Virus record (IMG/VR): IMGVR_UViG_3300042451_000603
Location: 1 to 35,624 of that record
Strand: one strand, 5' to 3'
Length of the DNA: 35,624 nt
Source of the DNA: a virus
Positions 5,040 to 35,624 of the stretch are shown here, one piece after another (position 1 is the stretch's first letter; every line of letters starts with the position of its first letter). Both the position numbers and the translations under genes were made by a program. The notes under the pieces were generated by a model. It did no database searches. It was not told the DNA's origin and worked only from the letters and a program-made list of their open reading frames with translations.

Positions 5040-5660
5040 ATGGAATTTTTAATTAATGAATCTCAATTGAGACTTATCTTACAAGAACAGGAACAGTCAA
5101 AAATGACTGATAATATGAAAGAATTACATTCTTTTACTGACAATCTTGTTAATGATGCTAAAAAACAACACAATTTAAACTTAAAGTTTCTTTTAACTTA
5201 TGGAGCATCTGTTGGTGGATTAATAACACCATTAGATAATTTTATAAAGTCGGGTGATTTTAATTTAACTAACGAACAAGAACTTTTAATTTTAATTGGT
5301 GTTGCAAGTACATTTTTTTTACATAATCAAAAGGTTTTGGAATCTATTTTAACTAAAATTAAAGAAGAAGGACTTGGAGACGTATTTAAAGAAGTTTTAA
5401 TTAAAGGAATAAGTATAAAAAATTCATTTTTTAATTTTTTGAAGTCCGCAAACGTAATTTTGGATTCATCACTTAATCCATTATCGTATGCCTTTTTAGT
5501 CCCAATTATGACTGATATTTTATCCTATTCTAATAAGGGTGGTGATTTACAGACAATCGCAATGACTATCGCTAAAAGATTGGTAGCTTCAGGGGTGGTA
5601 ATTGTTGGTCAAATCACACTAACAGAGGTTATTAAAAAAATAATCAAGAAATTTTCTTAA
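5040..5660 (+). CDS. Tagged membrane protein (putative internal head protein)
   Basis: The 206-residue protein begins with the recurring tag MEFLINESQLRLILQEQ; [I/L]-x-E-Q falls at Leu14-Gln15-Glu16-Gln17, where a T4-type prohead protease would be expected to cut. The rest is helical with several hydrophobic stretches (FLLTYGASVGGLITPL, ELLILIGVASTFFLH, NPLSYAFLVPIMTDIL, RLVASGVVIVGQITLTEV) and a basic end. It could insert into a membrane. Delivery with the DNA is an inference from the tag alone. It has a late-type promoter and overlaps the convergent gene by 4 bases. Confidence 0.75.
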   Translation: MEFLINESQLRLILQEQEQSKMTDNMKELHSFTDNLVNDAKKQHNLNLKFLLTYGASVGGLITPLDNFIKSGDFNLTNEQELLILIGVASTFFLHNQKVLESILTKIKEEGLGDVFKEVLIKGISIKNSFFNFLKSANVILDSSLNPLSYAFLVPIMTDILSYSNKGGDLQTIAMTIAKRLVASGVVIVGQITLTEVIKKIIKKFS

Positions 5661-8518: not shown

Positions 8519-9622
8519 TTATTGTGAAGATGATGAAAAGTCGGTGTCACCCAACACAATATATCTCAAATTTAACACAATTGGTGATGTTGTAAAATTA
8601 ATGTTAAAAAAAGGTGATGAATTTATGGTGTTGAAATTATTCAAGGTAATTGTTGAATAGGTTGCGGAAGTAAACCACAACACTTCGGTAAGAGGTCTCA
8701 TTCCAGTTAAACTACTTGCAAGTAGGTATCCATCATCAATATAAACTTTCCCATCTTTATTGATATCACCAGCTTTCATTTTAACCCCCGAATTTAACAC
8801 CAACCCCGGACTTAACACCGGAGGAACGCTAACATTTTTGGCCTCATTCAATAATAAGGTTAAATCATTGTTGGTTAATGATGAAGAGAACGATGGAACC
8901 ACACGATAGGTTGCATTATATTCATTTGGTTTTAAGGAATAATTCCCATTAACATCAACAACGCTACTATCAATTAAGGTTGATGTTGTACCATTAATTT
9001 TGAATAACCTTAACCTTGGTCTATTCACCAATCCGGATGGAATGGAAACATTTCCACTTATGGTTTCGGTTGGGGATAAATTTGGGTTTGGTTGGGCTCC
9101 GGCGATGGTTGTTCTGAAGTCAAAAGTATTACCATATGGGTAAGTCCCACATATTACAGGAGAACCGGAATATTGCATAATAAATCGCATAAAAACGGGT
9201 CCGTTAAAGACTGTCGTTGGTACCACAAATGTTGAGGTTATTGTTCTTGTTCCCATCCAAGAAACATTGGTGCTATGGACTAATTCCCCAGTATCCGTTA
9301 AAACTCCATTCCCGTTAAAATCAATCCATAATTTGAAAAATTCCATGTAATTACCATTTGTAACTGCGGTATATGAGATGGATATGGTTTGACCTGCGGT
9401 AATGGTTGGAACCGCCGTTCCATTCGTGTAATTAAAATAACCTGCCGGATTACCTCCGGACGCCGCAGTAAATCCATTACTACCCGCATAAGTTTGTCCG
9501 TTAATTGTTATACTTGAAACATATTCACAACAAAATGTTGTTGGATGACTTGGACATAATGAAGTTTGAGAATGAAGAATTTCTCCAATAAATAAGAAAA
9601 TAAATAAAAAATATCTCATCAT
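8519..9622 (-). CDS. Secreted GEVED-domain protein with dockerin-like module
   Basis: The 367-residue protein has a signal peptide (MMRYFLFIFLFIGEILHSQ). Residues about 30-175 form a GEVED-type beta domain: CCEYVSSITINGQ, then LWIDFNGNGVLTDTGE, FMRFIMQYS and YPYGNTFDFRTTI in place of YGEVEDY. Residues about 185-365 are a carboxypeptidase-regulatory-like strand domain followed by a dockerin-like calcium loop (GDINKDGKVYIDDGYLLAS) and RYIVLGDTD. The same module order occurs in the protein at 12658-14559, but this one stops where that one continues into cohesin-like and T9SS sorting domains. It is the last gene of the seven-gene surface operon. Confidence 0.8.
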   Translation of the reverse strand: MMRYFLFIFLFIGEILHSQTSLCPSHPTTFCCEYVSSITINGQTYAGSNGFTAASGGNPAGYFNYTNGTAVPTITAGQTISISYTAVTNGNYMEFFKLWIDFNGNGVLTDTGELVHSTNVSWMGTRTITSTFVVPTTVFNGPVFMRFIMQYSGSPVICGTYPYGNTFDFRTTIAGAQPNPNLSPTETISGNVSIPSGLVNRPRLRLFKINGTTSTLIDSSVVDVNGNYSLKPNEYNATYRVVPSFSSSLTNNDLTLLLNEAKNVSVPPVLSPGLVLNSGVKMKAGDINKDGKVYIDDGYLLASSLTGMRPLTEVLWFTSATYSTITLNNFNTINSSPFFNINFTTSPIVLNLRYIVLGDTDFSSSSQ

Positions 9623-11058
9623 AAATTAATTTTTGACCCAATTAAGAAAAATGACAGAACCGGAAAGTTGGGGTTGGTACTGGTGTTTAACTTATAGTTC
9701 ATATTTACCTTAAATCTTTTTGAAAATTGATAATCCACACTGGACCCAATAAACATACTGAATGTTCGGTCCGAAACACTAACTTTATCTACAGATGAAT
9801 AAATAAGTGGAGTTGATATCACATATAATTCAGGGGAAATAATCATTTTTTTATTTATCTTGATTGGTTTGGTGTAAAACGCGGTAACCGCCGGGCTTAA
9901 ATATAAATTCATATCTTCAGGACTTTTTGTTATTGAACCACTAATATTGGCCCCTGTAATACCAAATTTCCCCGCGTTTAGGATTGCACTATAACCCAAA
10001 AAACTCATAAGATTTCCATATGAATAAACCCCCGTTAAATTCACATTATGAATTAACTTTAACTTTCTATTTTTACTGAATTGTATTTTGGTATATCTAC
10101 CAGTTACCGCAAATTGTTTGAAGTTAAACCAAATCATTGAATTTAACCCCCAACTTGAAGTTCCAATCATTGAAGATTTGAACATTCCCACATTTATAAT
10201 CGGAGTAAAACTTCTATCCATATTTTGAGCACTTGTTAAATCGGAAGAGATAATTACAGGGTTTGATTTTGAATTTCCCTTTCCTTTTGAGGAACCTTTA
10301 TCATTGTTGGCGTCAGTTGTCATCGTTATTGTCGTTCCAACCTCATTTCCGGAATTGGTTTCCGTTGCGGTTTCCGTTGCGGTTTCCGTTGAATTTTCAC
10401 CACTTTGATTTGAACTTTTTGATGAATTTTCACCACTTTGATTTGAACTTTTTGATGAATTTTCACCATTTTGATTTGAACTTTTTGATGAATTTTCACC
10501 ATTTTGATTTGAACTTGTTGATGATGTGGTGGTAGGTTGGGGTGAAATACTTGCATTAAAAGTTGATGGAAATGGAACACCTGATGATGAAATTATTGGT
10601 GTTTTTGAACCACTTTTTGAAGTATTTTTACTTTCATTTTTAGTATTCTTATCTTCAGTATTTGAATTTAAGTCCATATTCGCTAACATACCGGATTCCG
10701 CATTAACTTGTCCCATAATACTCCCTACAACACTTTGAATGGTGTTTCCAATTATTTGGGAAGTTATTTGATTTCTAATTAGTGTTGTAGATTGAATTGA
10801 ACAAGGTGTTAATTTTCGGTATTCCGTATATCTTTGGTTAATCCAGTTGGCAAAATCACCGCGGATAACATCATCTGCGGTGAAATATTTTTGTTGTCCC
10901 AAAAAAGAAATTAATGTTCCGTTTCCACTTTGAATTGGAAGATTAAATTGTGTTATTTCTTTGGTACAAGGGTCTATAAATGTATAGATAAATGTTTGAC
11001 CAATCGCCGTTAAATTAGTAAAAAAAACTATCAGTAAGATTGGTATTATTCTTAACAT
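9619..11058 (-). CDS. Secreted outer-membrane barrel-like protein with 11-residue repeats
   Basis: The 479-residue protein has a signal peptide (LLIVFFTNLTAIGQ) and an N-terminal domain of about 100 residues. A low-complexity Ser/Asn/Thr linker follows with four copies of SSNQ[N/S]GENSSK and a Thr/Glu run. The C-terminal half, about 200 residues, has alternating strands typical of an outer-membrane barrel (WGLNSMIWFNFKQFAVTGRY, VSVSDRTFSMFIGSSVDY, ending SFFLIGSKINL). It lies 2 bases downstream of the CsgG-like gene and overlaps the GEVED gene by 4. A partner or outer component of the CsgG-like pore is a plausible inference. Confidence 0.75.
   Translation of the reverse strand: MLRIIPILLIVFFTNLTAIGQTFIYTFIDPCTKEITQFNLPIQSGNGTLISFLGQQKYFTADDVIRGDFANWINQRYTEYRKLTPCSIQSTTLIRNQITSQIIGNTIQSVVGSIMGQVNAESGMLANMDLNSNTEDKNTKNESKNTSKSGSKTPIISSSGVPFPSTFNASISPQPTTTSSTSSNQNGENSSKSSNQNGENSSKSSNQSGENSSKSSNQSGENSTETATETATETNSGNEVGTTITMTTDANNDKGSSKGKGNSKSNPVIISSDLTSAQNMDRSFTPIINVGMFKSSMIGTSSWGLNSMIWFNFKQFAVTGRYTKIQFSKNRKLKLIHNVNLTGVYSYGNLMSFLGYSAILNAGKFGITGANISGSITKSPEDMNLYLSPAVTAFYTKPIKINKKMIISPELYVISTPLIYSSVDKVSVSDRTFSMFIGSSVDYQFSKRFKVNMNYKLNTSTNPNFPVLSFFLIGSKINL
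10387..10518 (-). repeat. Four tandem 33-bp coding repeats
   Basis: Four near-identical 33-bp units encode SSNQ[N/S]GENSSK in the linker of the barrel-like protein. The first two units translated carry Asn and the last two carry Ser, consistent with unit duplication. Confidence 0.85.
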
Positions 11059-22736: not shown

Positions 22737-23237
22737 TTACTGACCTTTAATCATCCCAAGACCATGTTTGAGAAATTCTTTTGCTCTTGGTGTGATATGT
22801 TGCATCGCATAGACTTTTTCAATATCTTTAACAAGTTCTTCACCATAGTGGTTTTCCTTATAAAGTTCAATAATTTTATCCATCGCAGAATTACATTCAT
22901 TCTTTGTTTCATCAAAATAATTGTAAGGTTTAAATGCTTTCAGGTGGTTCATAATTTCACTCGCCAAGTGTTCACCACCATCGGTAACTTTCGGGTGAAT
23001 TCTAAGCGTCTTTAATAGTTCAATTTTATCTACCAATCCATTAACACCATTAGGTCTAATTTGAACTCCCTCGATATAATCTTCCATTTCATCACCACCA
23101 ACTATTTCCTCAAGGGATTTAGTGTTTCCGCCATGGCAGAATTTTCGGTCATCTTTTTTATTTTCCGATTGTTCTATAAGATAGAGTTTTTTAATCTCTT
23201 CTTTTTCTTGTTCTGTAATTATAAATTTTGTTCCCAT
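22737..23237 (-). CDS. Tagged protein of unknown function
   Basis: The 166-residue protein opens MGTKFIITEQEKEEIKKLYL and then I-E-Q, giving L-I-E-Q at residues 20-23. The mature part would be mostly helical (LVDKIELLKTLRIHPKV, EHLASEIMNHLKAFKPYN, DKIIELYKENHYGEELV). There is no enzymatic motif. It has a late-type box (23241-23248) and its own terminator, so it is a monocistronic late gene. Head packaging is inferred from the tag only. Confidence 0.75.
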   Translation of the reverse strand: MGTKFIITEQEKEEIKKLYLIEQSENKKDDRKFCHGGNTKSLEEIVGGDEMEDYIEGVQIRPNGVNGLVDKIELLKTLRIHPKVTDGGEHLASEIMNHLKAFKPYNYFDETKNECNSAMDKIIELYKENHYGEELVKDIEKVYAMQHITPRAKEFLKHGLGMIKGQ

Positions 23238-30257: not shown

Positions 30258-30331
30258 TATAAATACTACGGATTTTAAAAAAAGGGATTGGGTTCCGAAC
30301 ATAAAAAAACCCCTCACATTGAAGGGGAATT
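30258..30331 (-). promoter_or_regulatory. Terminator-promoter cassette
   Basis: In minus-strand order this holds the terminator of the upstream gene (30303-30331, CCCCTTC/GAGGGG plus T7), a conserved GTTCGGAACCCAATCCC (30284-30301), and AAATCCGTAG leading into TATTTATA (30258-30265). The central element recurs at 33853-33870 and the AAATCCGTAGTATTTAT block recurs at 33129-33145. Confidence 0.65.
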
Positions 30332-30334
30332 TTA

Positions 30335-30757
30335 TTATTTAAATTCAAATTTATTTTGATTCCAAAACTCTTTATCGGCTTCTCCAATTATATTATTAAT
30401 TTGAGAATATGTATTACTACCTAATATACCATCTTCCTGTAAGAAAGGGTATTTTTTTCCTGGTCCTAACATACCACTTTTATTAAGATATTTCTGAATA
30501 GTTAAAACATCATTATCTTTTTTTGTATTTTTAGATAAACCTTGGAGACCCATAGGCTTATATTTTAAAACAACCTTTTTCATCAATGTTAAATAATTTT
30601 GTGGAATTATTTGTTCATTAACCAATGGTTTTGCATCACCAAGTTTAGAATTCAATAATTTTGAGAAATTTTCGGTCATAACCTTCATTCCTCCGGTATG
30701 TTGCTCACGGATTGAATTTTTTTCTTCTTCCGTCAAATTGTTTAAAATGTGTTTCAT
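30335..30757 (-). CDS. Tagged protein with PG-binding-like C-terminus
   Basis: The 140-residue protein starts MKHILNNLTEEEKNSIREQH, with I-R-E-Q at residues 16-19. A second candidate V-N-E-Q lies near residue 48. The C-terminal half has DVLTIQKYLNKSGML and FLQEDGILGSNTYSQI, the pattern of a PG_binding_1 domain (the endolysin has DGIVGPGTW). It could bind the cell wall after delivery. The late-type box is at 30772-30779. Confidence 0.75.
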   Translation of the reverse strand: MKHILNNLTEEEKNSIREQHTGGMKVMTENFSKLLNSKLGDAKPLVNEQIIPQNYLTLMKKVVLKYKPMGLQGLSKNTKKDNDVLTIQKYLNKSGMLGPGKKYPFLQEDGILGSNTYSQINNIIGEADKEFWNQNKFEFK

Positions 30758-31129: not shown

Positions 31130-31630
31130 TTATAAATACACCTTACCTTTAACATCCACCATTTTTCTAATTTCCTCTTCAACATATATTTTTGATAATG
31201 GTGTAAATCTTAAATCCAAATGACCACCAACATATTTTAATTTACCAAGGTCTTCAAGTTTACTTGGAGATAAATACAAATTACCACCAACCGAAGTTAG
31301 ATTTCCAAGGTCTTCAAGTTTACTTCTAGTTAAATTCAAATCACCTCCAACCGAAGTTAGATTTCCAAGAGATTTTATATTACAATACGCCCAATTAAAT
31401 GAACCTCCAACCGAAGTTAGATTTCCAAGAGATTTAATACCACTTTCCTCCAAATCAACCCAACCTTCAACCGAAGTTAGATTCCCAAGGGATTGGTTGG
31501 TCTCAACTAAAAATAAACTTAAATTATCGGTAATAATATAAGGAGGATTACCCATCTTTTCCAAGAAATTTTGTAAATCATTCCATTTATTACTAAAAAA
31601 CGCAAAAGGAAGTTTCAATATCTTACTCAT
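31130..31630 (-). CDS. Untagged LRR protein
   Basis: The 166-residue protein starts MSKILKLPFAFFSNKWNDLQ. Its body aligns from ILKLPFAFF with the two tagged LRR proteins (ILRVPFAAFGNDWDVLQRFL), so it lacks precisely the tag. Five 20-residue repeats of the type S-L-G-N-L-T-S-V-G-G-x-L-x-L follow, forming a predicted beta-solenoid, and then the common C-cap (TPLSK, then VDVKGKVYL). The fifth repeat is degenerate (LGKLKYVGGHLDL). It overlaps the upstream gene by 8 bases and could be a decoy, cytosolic paralogue or regulator; the role is unknown. Confidence 0.75.
   Translation of the reverse strand: MSKILKLPFAFFSNKWNDLQNFLEKMGNPPYIITDNLSLFLVETNQSLGNLTSVEGWVDLEESGIKSLGNLTSVGGSFNWAYCNIKSLGNLTSVGGDLNLTRSKLEDLGNLTSVGGNLYLSPSKLEDLGKLKYVGGHLDLRFTPLSKIYVEEEIRKMVDVKGKVYL
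31131..31138 (-). promoter_or_regulatory. Late-type promoter embedded in LRR 3' end
   Basis: TATTTATA here is formed by the codons TAT TTA TAA of the terminal Y-L-stop of the LRR gene, and it precedes the gene at 30798-31115. Confidence 0.6.
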
Positions 31631-33278: not shown

Positions 33279-33824
33279 CTATAAATATACATCACCTCCA
33301 ACTTCTACCATTGAATGAATTTCTTTTCTGGTGTATTTTTTTGATAATGGTGTGTTTCTTAACATCAAATCACCTTCAACCGAAGTTAGGTTCCCGAGAG
33401 ATTGAATTTTACTACCTCCCAAATCCAAATAACCTTCAACCGAAGTTAAATTTCCAAGGTCTTTAATTTTACTATAATTCAAATTCAAATAACTTCCAAC
33501 CGAAGTTAGGTTCCCGAGAGATTGAATTCCACTACCTCTCAAATACAAATAACCTCCAACCGAAGTTAGATTTCCGAGAGATTGAATTTTACTACCTCCC
33601 AAATTCAAATAACCTCCAACCGAAATTAGATTTCCGAGAGATTGAATTTTACTACCACTTAAATCCAAATCATCCATAATCTCATAAGGAGGATTCCCTC
33701 TTCGTTCCAAAAATCTTTGTAATACATCCCAATCATTACCAAATGCGGCAAAAGGAACCCTTAATATCTGTTCCTCTTGTTCGGTTAATAATCTGTATTG
33801 ACGCTCGTTAATTATATATTTCAT
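33279..33824 (-). CDS. Tagged LRR protein, five repeats
   Basis: The 181-residue protein has the tag MKYIINERQYRLLTEQ, with L-T-E-Q at residues 13-16. The shared cap RVPFAAFGNDWDVLQRFLER and RGNPPYEIMDDLDL follows. Then come five 20-residue repeats (S-L-G-N-L-T-S-V-G-G-Y-L-x-L with S-K-I-Q) and the C-cap TPLSKKYTRKEIHSMVEVGG. A curved beta-solenoid for protein or glycan binding is predicted. The last codons contain a late-type promoter for the mini-gene downstream. A close paralogue with ten repeats lies at 34657-35502. Confidence 0.85.
   Translation of the reverse strand: MKYIINERQYRLLTEQEEQILRVPFAAFGNDWDVLQRFLERRGNPPYEIMDDLDLSGSKIQSLGNLISVGGYLNLGGSKIQSLGNLTSVGGYLYLRGSGIQSLGNLTSVGSYLNLNYSKIKDLGNLTSVEGYLDLGGSKIQSLGNLTSVEGDLMLRNTPLSKKYTRKEIHSMVEVGGDVYL
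33361..33660 (-). repeat. Tandem 60-bp coding repeats (five units)
   Basis: The 60-bp period with the conserved core AACCGAAGTTAG encodes the LRR units of the protein at 33279-33824. It is coding, not CRISPR. Confidence 0.9.
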
Positions 33825-33828
33825 AATT

Positions 33829-33902
33829 TATAAATATAATGGTTTTCAAAAAGGGGTTGGGTTCCGGACATAAAAAAACCCCTCAATAATGGAGGGGTTA
33901 TA
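33829..33902 (-). promoter_or_regulatory. Terminator-promoter cassette
   Basis: In minus-strand order this holds a terminator (33869-33902, CCCCTC/GAGGGG plus T7), GTCCGGAACCCAACCCC (33853-33870) and TATTTATA (33829-33836), which ends four bases before ATG 33824. It is the same architecture as at 30258-30331. Confidence 0.65.
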
Positions 33903-33919
33903 ATTAATATATTATGAAA

Positions 33920-34273
33920 TTATTTTCTTGGGTTTTTTTTCCAAACGGCCAATGGTCCGTATTCTTTTACCCATTGTGAATATGCTTCTTTACCACCTCT
34001 TCCCCACCATTGGTCAATTCCAGGGTACTTACTAGTAAGGTCTTCCCATTCTCCATCATTATCAAGGAAAAAATCAACATCAGTTTCATGATAATCATCA
34101 TCACTCCGTAAATAATCCGCCAATCGTTTACCAGTCGGTCGACCTTTAGAGTCTAAAGTCCTGTTTGGTTGTTTAACACCCGAACCATAAAACTCATTTT
34201 CATCTTGTTCTTTAATAACACGTCTAACAATTCTTGATAAATCGTTTTCCGTTAATCTAACTATTTTTTTCAT
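33920..34273 (-). CDS. Tagged protein of unknown function
   Basis: The 117-residue protein has a 23-residue tag with MKKIVRLTENDLSRIV and the end VIKEQ (I-K-E-Q at 20-23), identical in protein to the next gene upstream. The body is unrelated: acidic, with GRPTGKRLADYLRSDDDYHE and GIDQWWGRGGKEAYSQW. No enzyme motif. It lacks a clean TATTTAT box; the corresponding position is altered by the 3' end of the gene upstream. Confidence 0.75.
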   Translation of the reverse strand: MKKIVRLTENDLSRIVRRVIKEQDENEFYGSGVKQPNRTLDSKGRPTGKRLADYLRSDDDYHETDVDFFLDNDGEWEDLTSKYPGIDQWWGRGGKEAYSQWVKEYGPLAVWKKNPRK

Positions 34274-34293
34274 ATTAATTTGTTTTAATTTTA

Positions 34294-34593
34294 TTATCTT
34301 CTTACTTTGAATCCTCCAGTTGTTTCGGCGTACTTGTCATACATTTTCTTTGTTGCAACACACGATTTAGTATTACATTTGTTCATAAATTTCATAAATG
34401 ATTTATATTCATCAGGTCCAAAAGTTATTTCTTCTGAGTAGTCAGTTGGTTCATCAATTTCCATATCATCAGAATCAAACCATCTACCATCACCTCCTGA
34501 AGTAAATACGTTTCCGTCTTCATTTTGTTCTTTAATAACACGTCTAACGATTCTTGATAAATCATTTTCAGTTAATCTAACTATTTTTTTCAT
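34294..34593 (-). CDS. Tagged protein of unknown function
   Basis: The 99-residue protein has the same 23-residue tag as its downstream neighbour, then an unrelated acidic body (GRWFDSDDMEIDEPTDYSEE) and a small Cys-containing helical end (MKFMNKCNTKSCVATKKMYD). The late-type box is at 34625-34632, followed by a leader with tandem AATTAAAAC-like repeats. Packaging into the head is inferred. Confidence 0.75.
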   Translation of the reverse strand: MKKIVRLTENDLSRIVRRVIKEQNEDGNVFTSGGDGRWFDSDDMEIDEPTDYSEEITFGPDEYKSFMKFMNKCNTKSCVATKKMYDKYAETTGGFKVRR

Positions 34594-34624
34594 ATTAATT
34601 TGTTTTAATTTGTTTTAATTTTAT

Positions 34625-34632
34625 TATAAATA
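34625..34632 (-). promoter_or_regulatory. Late-type promoter TATTTATAATAAAA
   Basis: The minus strand reads CAATATATTTATAATAAAAT. The adjoining leader AATTAAAACAAATT occurs twice before the start at 34593 and is shared with the gene at 33920-34273. Confidence 0.65.
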
Positions 34633-34656: not shown

Positions 34657-35502
34657 TTATAAAATTACCTTACCTCCAACTTCTACCATTGAACGGATTT
34701 CTTCTTCGGAATATTTTTTTGATAATGGTGTGTTTCTCAAATTCAAATCACCTTCAACCGAAGTTAGATTTCCAAGGTCTTCAATTTTACTTTCATATAA
34801 ACTCAAATAACCTCCAACCGAAGTTAGATTTCCGAGGGATTCAATTTTAGTAAATGCTAAACTCAAATAACCTCCAACCGAAGTTAGATTACCAAGGTCT
34901 TTAATTTTACTATTAAATAAATTCAAAAAACCTTCAACCGAAGTTAGGTTTCCAAGGTCTTCAATATTACTTTTATATAAATTCAAAAAACCTCCAACTG
35001 AAATCAAACTCCCAAGGGATTCGATTTTATTATTTTTCAAACTCAAATAACCTCCAACCGAAGTTAGATTACCAAGGTCTTCAACTTCACTATTCTCCAA
35101 ATACAAATCACCTTCAACCGAAGTTAGATTTCCGAGGGATTGAATTTTAGTATATTCTAAATTCAAATAACCTTCAACCGAAGTTAGATTTCCGAGGGAT
35201 TGAATTTTAGTAAATCTCAAATTCAAATAACCTCCAACCGAAGTTAAATCTCCAAGAGATTGAAGTTCACTATTCTCCAAATCCAAATAACCTTCAACCG
35301 AAGTTAAACTTCCAAGGGATTCAATTTTAGCGCTAAATAAATCCAAATTATCCATAATTTCATAAGGTGGATTTCCTCTTCGTTCCAAAAATCTTTGCAA
35401 TACATCCCAGTCATTACCAAAAGCCACAAAAGGAACCTTCAAGATGTCATTATCTTGTTCCAATAATAATTTATATTGATGTTCGTTAATTATATATCTC
35501 AT
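34657..35502 (-). CDS. Tagged LRR protein, ten repeats
   Basis: The 281-residue protein has the tag MRYIINEHQYKLLLEQ, with L-L-E-Q at 13-16, then the shared cap KVPFVAFGNDWDVLQRFLER. Ten 20-residue repeats follow (consensus L-G-N-L-T-S-V-[G/E]-G-Y-L-x-L-x-x-[T/S]-K-I-[Q/E/K]-[S/D]) and a C-cap TPLSKKYSEEEIRSMVEVGG. It is about twice the length of its paralogue at 33279-33824, due to repeat number alone. The late-type box at 35507-35514 overlaps the end of the next LRR gene upstream. Confidence 0.85.
   Translation of the reverse strand: MRYIINEHQYKLLLEQDNDILKVPFVAFGNDWDVLQRFLERRGNPPYEIMDNLDLFSAKIESLGSLTSVEGYLDLENSELQSLGDLTSVGGYLNLRFTKIQSLGNLTSVEGYLNLEYTKIQSLGNLTSVEGDLYLENSEVEDLGNLTSVGGYLSLKNNKIESLGSLISVGGFLNLYKSNIEDLGNLTSVEGFLNLFNSKIKDLGNLTSVGGYLSLAFTKIESLGNLTSVGGYLSLYESKIEDLGNLTSVEGDLNLRNTPLSKKYSEEEIRSMVEVGGKVIL
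34741..35340 (-). repeat. Tandem 60-bp coding repeats (ten units)
   Basis: Ten in-phase 60-bp units share the core AACCGAAGTTAGATT and encode the LRRs of the 281-residue protein. High DNA identity between units makes slippage or recombination likely. Confidence 0.9.
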
Positions 35503-35505
35503 AAC

Positions 35506-35624
35506 TTATAAATATACATTACCTCCAACTTCTACCATTGAACGGATTTCATCTTTGAAATATTTTCTTGATAATGGGGTGTATATTAAATCCAAACTAC
35601 CTCCAACCGAAGTTAGGTTCCCAA
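35506..35624 (-). CDS. LRR protein, C-terminal fragment (continues beyond window)
   Basis: Only the last 38 residues are inside the window: GNLTSVGGSLDLIYTPLSRK and then the C-cap EIRSMVEVGGNVYL. It is the fourth LRR paralogue in 4.5 kb. Its Y-L-stop codons (TAT TTA TAA) form the late-type promoter of the next gene. Confidence 0.85.
   Translation of the reverse strand, partial: GNLTSVGGSLDLIYTPLSRKYFKDEIRSMVEVGGNVYL
35507..35514 (-). promoter_or_regulatory. Late-type promoter embedded in LRR 3' end
   Basis: TATTTATA is formed by the terminal codons of the LRR fragment, and its end is four bases from the start of the ten-repeat LRR gene at 35502. Confidence 0.6.

Follow-up and report, generated by a model that had tools for sequence, protein, structure and literature searches.

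Phage T4 internal proteins IPI, IPII and IPIII as well as Alt, all substrates of the prohead protease gp21, carry a short N-terminal leader ending in L/I-X-E (PMC9026906, PMC3012670), and the cleavage rule of gp21 is L/I-X-E↓ (PMC9026906; the arrow marks the cut throughout). Identical or similar leaders precede divergent bodies, the IPII and IPIII leaders being identical. In the IPIII leader, targeting needs residues 4 and 7, and processing needs residues 8 and 10, i.e., P3 and P1. The capsid protein gp23 loses 65 residues (PMC9026906). Once injected, the internal proteins counter restriction (PMC3012670), and in the T-even phages they form hypervariable sets of diverse small proteins in which only the targeting leader is conserved (PMC3012670). 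The inner-head propeptides of phiKZ and SPN3US are likewise cleaved after the Glu of a three-residue motif, and SPN3US gp53 and gp54 have identical N-termini on diverged bodies (PMC5694885). In these phages, however, the motif is S/A-X-E, several propeptides exceed 100 residues and the proteases are distant from gp21.

Here we describe probable leaders of this kind in the window, i.e., the whole 35,624-nt stretch of the viral record IMGVR_UViG_3300042451_000603, and in related viruses. As in T4, the leaders end in L/I-X-E and stand on unrelated proteins, a T4-type protease and capsid protein (gp21 and gp23) occur in the same phages, gp23 of the large relatives has the motif itself, and the bodies vary greatly between phages. 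With the motif [ILV]-X-E and a length of 15–49 residues, the leaders fall outside the phiKZ/SPN3US type. They also differ from the T4 leaders, which have 7–19 residues and to which they show no evident sequence relation. Furthermore, there are several leader classes per genome, at least 114 body groups in the sample and about eight class-1 genes in each of two large genomes, where many are grouped at one contig end.

A near-identical block in two adjacent genes

Gene 1 (33920–34273) and gene 2 (34294–34593), both on the minus strand, open with MKKIVRLTENDLSRIVRRVIKEQ and have the same first 23 residues, referred to as the tag or class-1 leader (Table 1). A repeat search and a local alignment agreed on a 93-nt block that is 96% identical between the genes (4 mismatches). 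It is composed of 18 nt of leader DNA, the 69 nt of the tag and two codons, beyond which the similarity ends. Three mismatches are synonymous and lie within the tag, and the fourth is at codon 24; the 18 nt before the ATG do not differ at all. Upstream of gene 2, a 10-nt leader sequence is present twice in tandem, and upstream of gene 1 once. The same tag and near-identical tag DNA on both genes, as stated in the original prediction, were thereby confirmed.

In related viruses, 10,681 pairs of tag genes whose bodies are unrelated were compared; genes 1 and 2 had the most similar tag DNA (3 differences in 69 positions), and just six pairs had six or fewer differences. This rank rules out chance as the cause of their likeness and, together with the common untranslated leader, makes recent copying or conversion the better account. 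Judged from these sequences, the two genes appear to have arisen by recent copying or homogenisation of approximately 93 nt comprising leader DNA and tag.

Table 1. Positions of leaders, bodies and associated elements in the window
Feature	Position	Strand	Remarks
Class-1 leader (tag) of gene 1, MKKIVRLTENDLSRIVRRVIKE↓Q	34205..34273	-	Prohead-protease cut predicted after Glu22, between 34208 and 34207, from the L/I-X-E motif
Body 1, 94 aa, acidic with basic C-terminus	33923..34204	-	Sole relative found is L003 (82% identity), likewise behind a class-1 leader
Class-1 leader (tag) of gene 2	34525..34593	-	Same 23 residues; 3 synonymous nt differences
Body 2, 76 aa	34297..34524	-	Relatives: L013 (two), L018, L029, L046 (class-1 leaders); L020/L147, L155 (class-3 leader)
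Copied block, gene 1	34199..34291	-	18 nt leader DNA + tag + 2 codons; 96% identical to 34519–34611
Copied block, gene 2	34519..34611	-	Counterpart of 34199–34291
Promoter-like box TATTTATA	34625..34632	-	Before gene 2 only, outside the copied block; box type enriched before tag genes and gp21/gp22 in related phages
Class-3 leader MKHILNNLTEEEKNSIREQHTGGMKVMTENFSKLLNSKLGDAKPLVNE↓Q	30611..30757	-	Syntenic site; body varies between phages
Body with weak PG_binding_1 similarity	30338..30610	-	Nothing there in L145; body-2 family in L147/L020
Class-2 leader MRYIINEHQYKLLLE↓Q of LRR-like gene 34657–35502	35458..35502	-	
Class-2 leader MKYIINERQYRLLTE↓Q of LRR-like gene 33279–33824	33780..33824	-	
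Untagged LRR-like paralogue	31130..31630	-	Starts MSK-ILKLPFAFF vs. tagged QEEQ-ILRVPFAAF / QDND-ILKVPFVAF; begins at the body
Probable class-2 leader MEFLINESQLRLILQE↓Q of gene 5040–5660	5040..5087	+	
Probable leader MGTKFIITEQEKEEIKKLYLIE↓Q of gene 22737–23237	23172..23237	-	Resembles class 3b

The bodies behind the two tags had been thought to share nothing. This held in direct comparison (best BLASTP E = 1.1 over 6 residues), whereas profile comparison qualified it. When L029 and L046 were added to the body-2 family (hhalign E values of 4e-6 and 3e-5, respectively), body 1 matched the resulting profile collinearly along 53 columns with an hhalign E value of 0.002, compared to 0.018 for the best of 137 controls. 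An HMM search with the body-2 family was not significant for body 1 (E = 2.7) or L003 (E = 0.42). We take this as a weak hint that body 1 may be remotely related to the family around body 2, to which L155 probably belongs. Used alone as a pattern query, body 2 retrieved no relatives, though some sat among the loci already collected, and an alignment of all related bodies contained no stretch conserved enough to serve as a search query. The AlphaFold model of body 1 (pLDDT 53) was too poor for structural comparison of the bodies; that of body 2 (pLDDT 73) had no match in the PDB.

In L003, body 1 occurs with other neighbours and without body 2. The DNA similarity between gene 1 and L003 starts at the start codon and stops 28 nt past the stop codon. 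Tag codons 4–6 and 13 of gene 1 match gene 2 and not L003, and codons 8, 10, and 15 match L003; over these few sites, the mosaic would fit a partial conversion by the neighbouring tag.

Ordinary tandem duplication would explain the pair differently: genes 1 and 2 would be ancient paralogues whose bodies are too diverged to be recognised as related, the tag having been preserved by selection, whether or not aided by gene conversion. Their adjacency, the weak collinear profile match and the strong protein-level selection on the tag described below all speak for such a history. The bodies, however, lack any match in direct comparison, the family HMM does not detect body 1, and body 1 stands alone in another context in L003. 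Moreover, the near-identity of synonymous sites and of the 18-nt untranslated leader indicates that the tag DNA itself was recently shared. We consider tandem duplication rather unlikely; as an account of how the pair arose, it would not conflict with a leader function of the tag.

The class-1 tag family and other leader classes

A search of IMG/VR yielded 171 places encoding the tag, compared to a single match, on a short contig, in bacterial and archaeal genomes; by this distribution, the tag is viral and not cellular. A tblastn search of phage records with the 23-residue tag alone gave no match at E 10, the query probably being too short, and no description of the tag was found within the literature searched. 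The best 80 of the 171 loci were fetched and contained at least 147 distinct genes with a canonical tag, the bodies of which fell into 114 groups (BLASTP, E 0.01). Aligned representatives of the body groups, from genes chosen to have Glu22, gave the consensus MKKIVRLTESDLxRIVKRVIxE, followed by no consensus. Glu22 was present in 152 of 155 tagged ORFs and I, V, or L at residue 20 in all 155, in a collection that constrains only residues 1–12 and was gathered via similarity to one tag, which sharpens the apparent conservation. Residues 21 and 23 were free, and the entropy leapt past residue 22. The tag is basic (charge +2.9), and AlphaFold predicted a helix over residues 9–23 (pLDDT ~65) followed by a break.

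Tags of unrelated genes from different phages were on average 73% identical at the nucleotide level. Their synonymous codons agreed with a frequency of 0.62 between genomes and 0.66 within genomes (maximum of 300 label permutations, 0.648). Protein-level selection explains most of the tag similarity in view of these values, so that the conservation is mostly due to purifying selection. General homogenisation of tags within genomes was rejected, as the within-genome excess is only weak; recent copying is not the general rule. The untranslated leader within the copied block of the gene pair might suggest that what is conserved is a leader function of the block in translation or expression, at the DNA or RNA level, its protein product being incidental. 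Across the family, however, the protein is conserved while the codons vary, and the 15 nt upstream of the tag genes are only ~50% alike, which makes this explanation highly improbable.

The aliphatic-x-Glu end of the class-1 tag is the motif of the T4 gp21 prohead protease and lies at the position expected for the terminus of a capsid targeting sequence; those tags that have V at P3 extend the T4 consensus. This terminal motif was missed in the earlier reading of the gene pair.

The same motif also terminates at least two further leader classes that are unrelated in sequence. Class 3, with a length of 48 residues (...KPLVNE↓Q), occurred at 27 places and had the aliphatic-x-Glu end in 23 of 23 distinct examples; L144, L146, L148, and L152 have lost one residue but kept this end. 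Class 3b (..SEEEKxRILxMH...YLxE↓) ended in the motif in all 16 genuine examples of a list read by eye. Class 2 (MKIIITExQYxxLxE↓) is looser, though many of its leaders end in the motif. That otherwise different leaders share their terminal motif points to a protease site and not to a common fold.

A permanent, uncleaved adaptor would be another explanation for the tag: a short amphipathic helix recruiting proteins to a host or phage complex such as a membrane, a polymerase or a replication compartment. The predicted N-terminal amphipathic helix and the basic tag on acidic bodies fit this idea, and the conserved Glu could be a helix cap rather than a cut mark. On the other hand, the conservation stops exactly at aliphatic-x-Glu, with the residue in between and the residue after it free, the sequence-unrelated leader classes share the terminal motif alone, and gp23 of the same phages has the motif at the expected end of its propeptide. 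We therefore regard a permanent adaptor as improbable, and a leader that is removed at the motif as the preferred reading.

Several leader-like sequences were observed in addition. A conserved gene with the motif RYMFFSNLEQM beside tail genes (L122 2774–3244, L105 7188–7643, L129) carries a full or shortened class-1-like leader ending in VLQE↓Q, VLKE↓Q, or VLKE↓E, and a 642-kb phage (LR756502) matched its body. Around position 7860 of L032/L033, MKIIITEDQYEQLTNIVKRVISEN joins a class-2 start to a class-1 end and is a possible hybrid leader. Genes starting with MKYLITESQL(D/E)KVIFRYLD... occur at many loci; their leader-like start is akin to class 2 but lacks a clear aliphatic-x-Glu end and may be a different kind of N-terminus. 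Bodiless ORFs of 49–58 residues consisting of a free class-3 leader were found in L135, L139, L140, L143, L144, L145, L148, L152, and L153, and may be either small scaffold or core proteins in their own right or emptied cassettes. Two of the class-2 leaders of the window (33780–33824 and 35458–35502) belong to a family of LRR-like genes with 60-nt (20-aa) repeats, whose copies (31130–31630, 33279–33824, 34657–35502, and 35506–35624, the last cut by the contig end) are 60–80% identical.

Head genes, promoter-like boxes and exchange of bodies

The gp21 family PF03420 was detected in 13 of 44 tag-bearing contigs and in 11 of 13 contigs of at least 120 kb; contigs without it are mostly shorter fragments, so its absence says little. 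Twelve of those 13 contigs, and a 642-kb phage, had gp23 (PF07068) above the cut-off, so that its distribution is nearly that of gp21. A gp21-type protease is encoded at L083 1345–2064. The gp21 proteins of tag-bearing contigs matched annotated T4-type prohead proteases, and their genes are followed by those of a gp22-like acidic scaffold protein and gp23. A PDB search related gp23 of these phages to T4 gp23, and its N-terminus had [LI][IL]NE↓[AS], a predicted cleavage site, near residue 60 in 10 of 10 genomes read. No head genes were recognised in the 35.6-kb window, which has many genes in common with tag-bearing relatives such as L020; from L003, L020 and the large contigs we infer that the window phage is T4-like.

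A TATTTAT box lies 8–60 nt before 96 of 164 class-1 genes (59%), 15 of 18 class-3 genes (83%) and 13 of 15 gp21/gp22 genes, compared to 125 of 550 other large ORFs (23%; Fisher p = 4e-17 for class 1). The genes of the major capsid protein mostly lack it. Sharing of this box, which we take to be a promoter, by tag genes and gp21/gp22 is as expected if the tag genes are expressed with head genes. The promoter had originally been placed within the copied cassette, but the box precedes gene 2 only; for this reason, the two genes probably share one transcript, and the copied block does not include the promoter. Two other repeats were noted: a 43-nt intergenic repeat (30274–30316 and 33843–33885, 91% identical), at whose end a terminator-like palindrome (CCCCTC...GAGGGG) starts, and 33-nt tandem repeats at 10350–10547 within gene 9619–11058.

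Window region 30335–30757 and its counterparts in L145 and L147 have a common flank and class-3 leader DNA (94% and 88% identical to the window, respectively); from the leader end onwards, they are no more similar than expected by chance. Behind it, the window encodes a weakly peptidoglycan-binding-like body and L147 a member of the body-2 family, whereas L145 has no body, i.e., a free 54-aa leader. The body-2 family in turn follows a class-1 leader in the window and a class-3 leader in L147. Thus, one leader occurs with different bodies and one body with different leaders. Related syntenic loci with the same leader before other bodies, which the original prediction had proposed to look for, therefore exist, and they break at the leader/body junction.

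Similarly, one whole tagged gene, a unit of 395 bp, distinguishes L005 from L007, which share ~97% identity around the site. A 78-bp repeat comprising leader and tag flanks the unit, and the crossover lies between the ATG and approximately codon 15. Most other indels between related phages had junctions away from class-1 tags. These comparisons support the view that recombination has joined a leader-tag cassette to different bodies. For the gene pair itself, the original preference for recent copying or recombination over divergence of a duplicate gains from the swaps at syntenic loci; the likeness of the tags alone is no proof of it, and diverged tandem paralogues with a homogenised tag could also produce it.

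Proposed function and implications

The repeat, the tag family, its motif, the co-occurrence with gp21 and gp23, the syntenic leader/body swaps and the tag-to-tag gene indel, all of them observed, are the evidence for reading the tag as a leader. Probably, the 23-residue tag directs virion-internal proteins of a T4-like phage to the capsid as an N-terminal leader (propeptide) that is subsequently removed; both its cleavage and the virion location are predictions. During prohead assembly, the amphipathic helix of the leader would dock the protein into the scaffold core, and the gp21-type protease would then cleave behind the Glu in the terminal motif (VIKE↓Q). Once released, the body would stay in the head with the DNA and probably be injected along with it. 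Such injected proteins typically act on host defences or physiology. The leader would be a self-contained address ending at the cut site, so that any body joined behind it would be packaged; recombination at leader DNA would consequently make new cargo genes.

The bodies are a counterpoint to this reading, as they are on average acidic (mean -3 per 100 aa), whereas the T4 internal proteins are described as basic, a usual trait that is not part of the leader definition; packaging in the phages studied here is likewise a prediction. Nearly all tagged bodies lack a match in Pfam or PHROGs. Among those with matches, two have peptidoglycan-binding domains, one matches endolysin families and one weakly resembles the antirestriction protein ArdA. 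The ArdA identity was not accepted, the match being below the curated cut-off. In having diverse small proteins with nothing but the leader conserved, the tagged genes resemble the restriction-countering sets of the T-even phages, and the ArdA-like body is a further, weak point of likeness. By analogy, anti-defence roles of tagged bodies are plausible.

A more speculative extension is that the leader classes form an address code, with classes 1, 2, and 3/3b each sending its own cargoes to a different site or stage of the virion (core, portal-proximal or tail) within one phage, and that the free class-3 leaders are scaffold components which repeatedly give birth to cargo fusions by recombination at the cut site. 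We hold this to be possible but unlikely.

The leaders of the window are best explained as relatives of the capsid-targeting leader of T4 that have expanded greatly and comprise several classes, with new cargo genes being created when leader DNA recombines. T4 is a known example of the principle; the literature searched contains no description of such a scale, of several leader classes or of direct swaps. If this explanation is true, hundreds of unannotated small genes of uncultured T4-like phages would be predicted to encode proteins that are packaged into the virion and probably injected; in T4, anti-defence functions are enriched among proteins of this class. The explanation would also provide a simple sequence rule for finding packaged cargo and a set of natural leaders for loading protein into phage heads. 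Finally, it would be a clear case of recombination at a protease site giving rise to new gene fusions.
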